A DNA stretch of 20,095 bases, taken from an uncultured Bacilli bacterium (lineage in GTDB: Bacteria; Bacillota_I; Bacilli_A; RF39; UBA660). Every line of letters begins with the position of its first letter. Positions within the stretch are counted from its first letter, which is position 1. The stretch lies in contig CAQBKK010000018.1 in NCBI GenBank assembly GCA_948760655.1, positions 1 through 20,095 of the forward strand. The letters are read 5' to 3'. The position numbers and the translations under genes were made by a program. Below the pieces are notes generated by a model. The model made no database searches and was not told the DNA's origin. It saw only the letters and a program-made list of their open reading frames with translations. Shown one piece after another: positions 17,826-20,095 of this stretch.

Positions 17826-18710
17826 TTATTCTTCTTTTTTAGCTCTTGGATGATTTTCATAATCACTTTTTAATTTTTCACTTACTAGATGGGTATAAAT
17901 TTCTGTAGTTGAAATATCACTATGTCCTAGTAGTTCTTGAATAATTCTTAAATCTGCACCATTTGTAAGTAAGTGGGTTGCATAAGAGTGTCTAAGTGTA
18001 TGAGGACTTATTTCTTTTTCTATTCCTTGTTCTCTTGCAATTCTTTTTAAATTCTTAAAGAAACCTTGCCTTGATATGGGATTGCCAAAGTTATTGATAA
18101 ATAAATATTCGCTATCTTTTTGCTTTAAGAGACTGTTGCGATATTCTTCTATATAAATTCTTAGGTACTTTTCAGCCATTGTACTTATTGGACTTAAACG
18201 ATCTTTGCTTCCCTTTCCTGTAACACGAATCATATCTTCTTCTAAGTTAATGCTACTTAATTTTAAATTAATTAGTTCGCTTACACGTGTGCCAGTTGCA
18301 TATAAAAGCTCTAACATAGCTTTGTTTCTATAATCTAGTGGCGTATTTAATTGTATATCTAGGAGTTTATTGATTTCTTCTTCGGTTAGATAATTTGGTA
18401 GTTTTTGGCTTATTTTAGGAGATTTGATGGTCTCGCAGGGGTTGTAGTCAATTAAGTCTTCTCCGACTAAAAATTGGTAAAAGTTTTTTACTACTGTTAA
18501 GTAATGTGCCCTACTTTTTTCGGCCATATTGTCATTAAATTTTAGGTATTTTTCGATATCTTCTCTTTTTAGGTCTTTGATACTTTTAGGAGTGATAAAT
18601 TCTTCAAAACGATTTAAGTTATCTTGATAAGAAGCAAGCGTATTTTTGGATAGCTTTCGTTCAAAACGGAGAGAGTCTAAGTATTTTTCATAGTATTCTT
18701 GGTTAGTCAT
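17826..18710 (-). CDS. xerD: Site-specific tyrosine recombinase XerD
   Basis: A 294-residue tyrosine recombinase, the normal XerC/D length, which resolves chromosome dimers at the dif site. The N-terminal SAM-like domain (residues 1-~85) includes FERKLSKNTLASYQDNLNRF. All catalytic residues are present: Arg142 (ATGTRVSELI), Lys166 (TGKGSKDR), His237 and Arg240 (SPHTLRHSYATHLL), His263 (LLGHSDISTT) and the nucleophile Tyr272 (TEIYTHL). This pattern fits XerD better than an integrative-element integrase, since nothing around it looks like an att site or cargo. The start at 18710 has GTGAATGT just upstream and a weaker GAGG further off. An IS110 element lies directly upstream, so its promoter may be short or altered by the insertion. 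Confidence 0.9.
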   Translation of the reverse strand: MTNQEYYEKYLDSLRFERKLSKNTLASYQDNLNRFEEFITPKSIKDLKREDIEKYLKFNDNMAEKSRAHYLTVVKNFYQFLVGEDLIDYNPCETIKSPKISQKLPNYLTEEEINKLLDIQLNTPLDYRNKAMLELLYATGTRVSELINLKLSSINLEEDMIRVTGKGSKDRLSPISTMAEKYLRIYIEEYRNSLLKQKDSEYLFINNFGNPISRQGFFKNLKRIAREQGIEKEISPHTLRHSYATHLLTNGADLRIIQELLGHSDISTTEIYTHLVSEKLKSDYENHPRAKKEE

Positions 18711-18792
18711 ACATTCACTATCCTCGTATAATCAATCTTATAGAAATTATTAATCTATTAGTTTGATTCTTTCTATTTATATTTTTTGAGTT

Positions 18793-18798
18793 TATAAT
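18793..18798 (+). promoter_or_regulatory. -10 box for the IS110 leader RNA
   Basis: A consensus TATAAT with no acceptable -35 at 16-18 bases upstream. Transcription would begin at about 18805, exactly where the first paired stem of the leader begins. In IS110 elements a complete promoter is formed when the ends join in the circle, so a -10 alone at the left end would fit. Confidence 0.55.
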
Positions 18799-18804
18799 AA
18801 CTCT

Positions 18805-18985
18805 TGCCTGTGGATTTGTTTCTACGCTCCTACAGCTTTGACTGTTTAGAAAGGCTCTTACCACAGACTTTTTATTTTAATTGTTGATTAGTTAGTTAAC
18901 GCATTGACGTTTTATAGGTTCAGCGAGGTTACAAGATAGAAAGCTTTTGTGGCAAACATACAGGCATTAAAAACTAACCAAGGAG
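18805..18985 (+). ncRNA. Candidate IS110 bridge RNA
   Basis: The ~180-base leader has nested pairing by eye. CTGTGG (18808-18813) pairs with CCACAG (18861-18866), inside it TTTCTA (18819-18824) with TAGAAA (18847-18852), and inside that ACAG (18832-18835) with CTGT (18842-18845). The unpaired strands between form internal loops. A second domain is closed by GTTAGTT (18891-18897) with AACTAAC (18972-18978), with an AACG/CGTT hairpin inside and the recombinase ribosome-binding site just after. Two stem-loops with internal loops ahead of the recombinase match the known target-binding and donor-binding loops of IS110 bridge RNAs. The fold is not computed. Confidence 0.65.
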
Positions 18986-18995
18986 GTGCATGTAT

Positions 18996-20095
18996 ATGAT
19001 ATATGTTGGAATAGATATATCAAAATACAAACACGATTGTTTCATCTGTAAAGATACAGGTGAAGTTATTGTAGAAAATTTATCTTTTGATAACAACAAA
19101 AAAGGATTTCAACAGTTCTTAGACTTACTGAAACCCTATGACAATTCTAATGTCCATATTGGTCTCGAAGCCACTGGACATTATGGTTTGAATTTGAAAT
19201 TATTCCTAGAAAAGAATAATTATAGTTTTATGGAATTTAATCCTCTTTTAGTAAAAGAATTTTATAAATCTTTATCTTTAAGAAAGACTAAAACTGATAA
19301 AGTTGATGCAACTGTAATTGCAAGGAAACTTATGTCAGTTCCATATAAACCAAATTCAAGCTTATTCTATCATAAATATTCCATTAAGTCACTTACAAGA
19401 TTAAGAGAAACTTTAGTGAAACAAAGAAGTAAATACAAAGTTCAATTAACAAATATATTGGATATGATTTTTCCTGAATTTAAACCATTTTTTAGTAATT
19501 CTTTTGGTATTACTTCTCTTTATATTTAGAGAAATATAAAACTCCTGAAAAGATTGCTAACATAAGAGATTTTGACTCTTTAAGTAAAATATCTCGTGGT
19601 AAATTTACTTATGCCAAATTTGTTAAATTAAAAGACTTAGCTAAAAATACAATTGGAGAATCCAATGATATTTTTGAACTTGAATTATCTTCTATTCTTA
19701 ATCTTTATAAAAGCATTGATGAACAAATTAACCTTATAGATAAACAAATTTCTACAATTATCAAAGAACTTAATCCACCAACTCTTTCTATTCCTGGAAT
19801 TGGTGTAATTACTTGTGCTTCAATCCTAAGTGAATTTGGAGACATTTCTAAATTTTCTAATCCAAGTAAAATGCTATCTTTTGCTGGTTTAGAGCCTGGG
19901 ATCATAGAATCGGGTACTATGTCTTCCAAAGGTAAAATGGTGAAGCGTGGTTCTGGATATTTAAGATATTCATTAATGAATGTAGCTCTTACTGTCATTA
20001 GATTATGACTATTACCATAAGAAAATATCTGAAGGTAAATGTCATAGAGTTGCTTTATCTCATGTTTGTAAGAAACTTATTAGAGTTATTTTCAT
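18996..20095 (+). pseudogene. IS110-family DEDD recombinase (transposase), broken by two frame disruptions
   Basis: The N-terminal DEDD (RuvC-like) domain is intact: Asp7 in GIDISK, Glu58 in LEATGHYG, Asp101 and Asp104 in KTDKVDA. The frame then stops at a TAG (19527-19529). Homologous sequence continues one frame over (LEKYKTPEKIANIRDF ...). This fits loss of one T from a T-run near 19526. The second stretch carries the Transposase_20 domain, LSIPGIGVITCASILSEFG and MLSFAGLEPG, then SSKGKMVKRGSGYLRYSLMN, where the family's catalytic serine lies. It stops at a TGA (20006-20008), while the C-terminus (YDYYHKKISEGKCHRVALSH) continues in the original frame, so a second small deletion is likely after VIR. 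The window ends before the true stop. AGGAGG is nine bases before the ATG at 18996; the ATG at 18990 is too close. The recombinase is probably inactive unless the first shift is a sequencing error or is recoded. Confidence 0.85.

Follow-up and report, generated by a model that had tools for sequence, protein, structure and literature searches.

What does the non-coding stretch between an xerD-like gene and a broken IS110-type recombinase gene encode? The locus lies in a 20,095-nucleotide stretch of DNA from an uncultured Bacilli bacterium (hereafter the window), and the initial annotation had read the leader of the recombinase gene as a bridge RNA having a guide specificity of its own. Comparison among copies shows that positions 18722–18989 (+ strand) are very probably the left end (LE) of an IS110-group insertion sequence encoding such an RNA, and this reading of the leader is borne out by the target guides when set against their flanks, by the right donor guide when set against the LE, and by covarying stems in the relatives. 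The ends, the core, the guides, the guide–site fit across copies, the conserved stems and the class of target are all read from the sequences; transcription of the RNA, its binding by the recombinase and recombination itself would be expected by analogy with IS621 (PMC11208160).

The gene upstream of the insertion encodes an xerD-like tyrosine recombinase (17826–18710, − strand; Pfam Phage_integrase, 2.9e-53), and the element sits within the ribosome-binding site of this gene. The left target flank occupies 18711–18724 (+), its last three nucleotides being the core triple CCT (18722–18724), from which copies are alike while their flanks differ. In the two closest uninterrupted xerD orthologues (L140 and L120), AAGGATAG is found before the start codon, at the point where homology to the window ends; the leaders differ in four more distant uninterrupted orthologues (L141–L144). 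A search for an empty site in the strain of the window yielded orthologues only. Downstream of the LE, the IS110 DEDD transposase gene is split into at least two frames. The N-terminal DEDD part (18990–19529, +; PF01548, 5.8e-36) stops early, and the C-terminal domain (19529–20005, +; PF02371, 6e-20) lies in another frame; the gene continues past the end of the window, which stops at 20095, short of the right end (RE) of the element. The recombinase of this copy had been called broken, rightly so, since the PF01548 and PF02371 pieces lie in different frames; both domains are found in the intact 388-aa recombinase of relative L010. The DEDD PF01548 and PF02371 domains, together with a long non-coding LE that lies upstream of tnp and contains a two-loop RNA, place the element in the IS110 group. 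The IS1111 group, with its bridge RNA in the right end and its long subterminal repeats, was rejected, as the RNA is found upstream and not downstream of tnp.

Relatives were gathered in one genome scan with an intact N-terminal recombinase piece, which gave 414 related loci, and the best 80 of these were used. The 80 range from 99% to ∼50% identical, derive mostly from uncultured Bacilli with some cultured Clostridia, and have a frame open for at least 384 codons in 64 cases, several others being cut by contig ends. Together with L109 and the window they form a pool of 82 loci; nine viral contigs with relatives were also found. Lacrimispora xylanisolvens (L041) and Anaerosacchariphilus polymeriproducens (L039) are among the cultured carriers. 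Copies in unrelated surroundings are alike from 18722 onward (CCTCGTATAATC), so the left flank, formerly placed before ∼18800, ends much earlier, close copies with unrelated left flanks already being alike at 18722. In motif-free alignments, CCT[CT][GA]TATAAT is present in 20 of 20 leaders and the right flanks end in TTGAC...ATAGTTAG plus the triple in 23 of 23. Ends outside these alignments were placed by motif, and ends without those motifs were therefore missed. Over 54 left ends the core triple is TCA in 25, CCT in 20 and TCT in five, with four others once each, and the left and right ends agree in this triple in 33 of 35 loci.

Joining of the ends reveals a promoter. The −10 box of the RE–LE junction lies at 18727–18732 (+), as judged from the joined ends of relatives, and 42 of 43 relatives combine a TTGA-type −35, exactly 17 bases and TATAAT. 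As the end-finding motifs contained the boxes and allowed spacings of 17–20, only the constant 17 is a test here; the same −35 and −10 boxes are present in the 20 left and 23 right ends that were aligned without motifs. This reconstitution is seen in the relatives, the RE of the window copy being outside the view. In an excised circle, the right and left ends would join to complete the promoter TTGACT-17-TATAAT, which would transcribe the bridge RNA. A second, conserved TATAAT at 18793–18798 (+) stands just before the bridge RNA and is perhaps an internal −10. The exact hexamer is found within 22 nt before TGTGG in 62 of 76 loci, compared with ∼0.04 expected per locus from base composition. 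A −35 with at least four of six matches accompanies it in 20 of the 76, and in the window the −35 is weak (TTTCTA, only 3/6). The position of this box had been correctly noted, whereas its distance to the first stem is nine bases rather than about seven. Between the two promoter elements, an inverted repeat with variable arms was observed by eye in the leader alignment (window 18730–18768), which could be a 5′ stem-loop or a terminator.

The RNA itself is recognized by conservation and not by stability. Folding the leader by itself had been proposed as a check, and 18799–18985 folded alone gives −41.5 kcal/mol as compared with −37.1 for shuffled sequences (z −1.10; 30 of 200 shuffles equally stable), which is no better than shuffled and, taken alone, therefore no evidence. 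An Rfam search of the window returned no family at gathering score; the single match (E 0.45), far under the gathering score of that family, was rejected as an identity for the leader. Of the two domains previously proposed, the first, closed at 18808/18866, is confirmed, with CTGTGG/CCACAG paired and invariant in 30 of 30 aligned sequences and changed on both sides in the more distant L047 and L068 (CTGCGG/CCGCAG). This is the target-binding loop (18808–18866, +), with a basal stem at 18808–18813/18861–18866 and an apical stem at 18832–18835/18842–18845. The second closure, at 18891/18978, is a 7-bp match in the window that is not conserved (73.6% of cells paired; covariation no better than in shuffles, 184 of 500 being as high), and the left donor guide is partly covered by its 5′ arm. 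The donor-binding loop (18868–18943, +) is better closed by 18868–18878/18933–18943, with an apical hairpin at 18898–18901/18908–18911.

Across 30 sequences, 89% of the cells in these four helices are paired, and both-sided changes occur in 10 of 25 pairs, in three of the four helices, a number reached by five of 500 shuffles. The covariation score (0.196) exceeds all 500 shuffles. The nearest control, the structure slid by +1, has 34 both-sided cells as compared with 29 and a score of 0.166, and in the donor basal stem only 77.6% of cells are paired. A covariance model, the other check that had been suggested, was built from the 30 sequences (R1) and matches the window at 18806–18983 (+) with 164.9 bits, a score obtained by construction because the window is among the training sequences. 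Of 51 genome loci held out from training, which include some near copies of the training set, R1 found the RNA in 50 (E≤6e-9), the single miss (L070) being cut by a contig end. R1 also matches eight of nine viral loci at E 4e-6 or better and, in one order, 26 of 288 genomes. Only two of nine more distant IS110 loci (L110–L118) were matched, the other seven giving nothing at E 1. Two unusual arrangements were observed among the matches. In L085 (2464–4000) the bridge RNA match lies ∼1.4 kb upstream of the transposase gene, whose start is immediately preceded by a right-end motif, and this is probably one element nested in another. L119 (681–858) has the bridge RNA region followed by a fused transposase remnant and is a deletion derivative.

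The target loop would read the insertion site, its left arm resembling the left top strand and its right arm being complementary to the right top strand. The left target guide, TCTACGCTCCT (18821–18831, +), was assigned from register and fit over 53 loci, and the right target guide, TTTAGAAAGG (18845–18854, +), has a single main register and predicts the right flank CCTTTCTAAA. The register scan of the right guide gave one peak (z 8.7; next best 3.0). That of the left guide was highest at −1 (z 5.3), flanked by lesser values at −2 (3.2) and 0 (2.5), the register shifting by 0–2 bases among loci. Guide tests covered 53 loci on the left and 42 on the right, the others lacking an end, sufficient flank or a readable loop. 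Left guides score 6.06 on their own flanks as compared with 4.42 when permuted (z 8.7, n = 53) and right guides 7.56 as compared with 4.40 (z 11.2, n = 42), with 0 of 5000 permutations reaching either value. Permuting only inside a core type leaves z at 7.0 on the left and 8.1 on the right; within the CCT clade the values are 5.9 (n = 20) and 5.0 (n = 16).

Copies were also paired greedily with their nearest relatives having a different guide. The own site was better for the left guide in 18 of 26 pairs (sign p 0.038, Wilcoxon p 0.003) and for the right guide in 15 of 21, with two worse and four ties (sign p 0.001, Wilcoxon 0.0004). Where the pairs are at least 75% identical, the left guide fits its own site better in 13 of 17 (p 0.025) and the right guide in eight of 14, with two worse and four ties (p 0.055). 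Examples are L051, with 11 of 11 right-hand bases matched, and L013, scoring 11.0 on the left. The idea that wobble pairing was selected to broaden the left guide was rejected, as wobbles are rarer at own sites (74) than the permuted mean (88.8).

First-loop guides thus match their own flanks in the relatives but not on the left of the window copy, where the guide scores 4.5 on its own flank, ranking fifth among 53 flanks and tied with three others. This guide is identical to that of the intact relative L011, which fits the L011 site at 7.5, and swapping the window site with that of L010 makes the fit not worse. There is an even chance that the element in the window is by now a dead fossil with an RNA of no further consequence, the poor left fit reflecting decay or gene conversion from another copy, and the broken recombinase agrees with this. 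Against it, the window has kept the conserved positions of the RNA and the two donor guides intact. The fossil reading is compatible with the bridge-RNA explanation. By its sequence, the window copy is an insertion upstream of an xerD-like gene, with its recombinase broken and its RNA region intact-looking.

The relatives usually sit in the ribosome-binding site that precedes the start codon of a gene on the opposite strand. CAT occurs within 14 nt in 46 of 54 left flanks, as compared with 26% of controls, and 42 of 54 have the start of an opposite-strand gene within 25 nt, as compared with 20% (controls were 1560 positions taken from these left flanks). The right flanks mostly continue as an antisense Shine-Dalgarno sequence. 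The guides of this lineage read a translation start in reverse, as antisense start codon, spacer and antisense Shine-Dalgarno sequence, and for this reason copies land in ribosome-binding sites and face away from the gene.

In the donor loop, both arms would read the joined ends of the element. The left donor guide TAGTTAG (18889–18895, +) is identical in sequence to the right end of relatives, a match that is partly by construction because right ends were located by TAGTTAG; the identity is also seen in the motif-free alignment. The right donor guide GCGAGG (18923–18928, +) pairs with LE CCTCGT through one G-T wobble. Over 56 loci, with L028 and L054 lacking a readable left end and scored zero, the right donor guide fits the left end with z 8.0, and the guide changes along with the end. 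Among 54 readable loci the LE/guide pairs include CCTCGT/GCGAGG in 13, CCTTGT/GCAAGG in five, TCACGT/ACGTGA in 20 and TCATGT/ACATGA in two, and the score is 4 or lower in 10. A C[GA]TGA guide segment is found in 25 of 25 copies with a TCA core, but also in seven of 26 with another core. A tree calculated from 51 recombinase pieces requires a minimum of nine changes of core type, with a single origin of CCT. The donor covariation follows clades, and of five independent pairs 1.7 agree, none disagrees and 3.3 show no difference, too few for significance. The match of second-loop guides to the element ends is carried by the right guide, with phylogenetically independent support for it being weak.

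It is very unlikely that the leader is instead an untranslated regulatory leader of the transposase gene, such as an attenuator or mRNA structure, with an incidental likeness to flanks and ends. The region does adjoin the ribosome-binding site of that gene, which the match at 18891/18978 could hide or expose, but this match varies among copies, the guide–site fit exceeds both permutation and near relatives, and the right donor guide matches left ends. Still less probable is conserved protein–DNA recognition of Shine-Dalgarno sites with the RNA merely a structural cofactor, where guides would resemble sites because sites are alike: a CAT-spacer-CCT/TCA motif is indeed common to the sites and therefore also raises permuted scores (mean 4.4), but own sites beat both others of the same core type and those of near relatives, as in L051 and L013.

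The bridge-RNA reading agrees closely with IS621, for which an LE-encoded bridge RNA and a promoter completed across RE–LE are described (PMC11208160). In both, the RNA is encoded in the LE before a DEDD/serine recombinase, a target loop is followed by a donor loop, the left guide of each loop pairs with the bottom strand and the right guide with the top strand, and the circle-junction promoter spans RE–LE (PMC11208160). The systems differ in target (the Shine-Dalgarno/start-codon region here, REP in IS621), in core (a triple CCT, TCA or TCT as compared with CT) and in the LE, which is ∼268 nt here and 191 nt in IS621 and here contains an additional TATAAT ahead of the target loop (PMC11208160). 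The seekRNA of IS1111/IS110 elements, as presented in PMC11187229, is likewise a non-coding RNA of the element that sets its target, lying upstream of tnp in the IS110 type, with the elements and targets being other ones.

Taken together, these comparisons offer a way in which an RNA could account for insertion at ribosome-binding sites. By reading start sites, an element could gain access to many genes yet spare coding sequence. The set provides dozens of natural guide–site pairs with clear registers, cores and ends from uncultured gut Bacillota and some cultured Clostridia. A literature search, which reached mostly less than full texts, yielded no paper tying such insertion sites to a bridge RNA. 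Two extensions are put forward tentatively, at a little under even odds: that bridge-RNA guides in Bacillota evolved to read translation starts generally, and that the RNA gene holds a hidden second end, given that the left donor guide has to reproduce the right end of the element. If the first is true, the long-known site preference of IS900 would also be explained.

In older papers on IS900, the insertion motif is reportedly described as an antisense start codon, a spacer and an antisense Shine-Dalgarno sequence. Our own reading of CATGNNNNNNTCTCCTT, the insertion motif given for this IS110-family element of Mycobacterium avium subsp. paratuberculosis, would be the same (PMC8141618). In this reading the target logic is shared, the comparison covering the insertion site; phylum and sequence differ, and the passages on IS900 in the available part of PMC8141618 contain no guide RNA.

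A 182-bp mini-element without transposase was observed in L161 (1409–1590), consisting of just an LE and target loop. Its end coincides exactly with the left donor guide TAGTTAG, beyond which come TCA and a Shine-Dalgarno flank, and by inspection the left guide of this mini-element fits the site it occupies if two wobbles are allowed. From its sequence, it looks as though the DNA of the guide itself had functioned as a right end to give a guide-only mini-element. Eleven listed orthologues of the neighbouring gene have a start-site signal in the leader and no insert in the stretch compared. A search for further such mini-elements in 385 genomes gave 45 places within one mismatch, the only exact one being that of L161 itself; in 30 of the 45 that were examined, a target loop stood in front of none except intact copies, with one chance TGTGGAT-type word in L180. 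L168, which breaks off in the donor loop, was rejected as a second case, as it lacks the end-plus-core pattern, and L161 thus stands as a single case.

A separate hairpin of ∼130–160 nt with fixed ends, TTTATGCCGAGAAAA and AATTGGAATAAA, was found 3′ of the transposase stop in some elements (L010:5173–5326, with relatives in L016, L022, L024, L042 and L058 and further ones in L157, L158, L239, L259, L291 and L293–L319). Its stems vary freely, and stretches containing it fold with z −8.3, −7.5 and −7.8; an Rfam search with the family gave no match. In 21 of 39 copies, a set that includes some loci fetched twice, the hairpin starts 0–11 nt downstream of an open frame that spans 80 codons or more. 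Ten such proteins comprise four rve (IS3-like), two IS110, one IstB (IS21) and three that belong to no transposase family. Of 241 genomes, 29 contain the pattern, at 41 places in all, whereas the reversed control had none among the matches listed, and a viral scan for the 15-mer TTTATGCCGAGAAAA gave 77 stretches, three of them with the partner block. This family is distinct from the bridge RNA and is possibly a new structured RNA or a hitchhiking hairpin.

Finally, a circular record of 1563 bp (L202, NZ_OY725734.1), filed as a Monoglobus pectinilyticus plasmid, has an IS110 transposase as its sole annotated gene. Bridge-RNA motifs precede the transposase, and the ends are joined with five extra bases, giving a spacer of 22 rather than 17; the record is possibly a captured circle.
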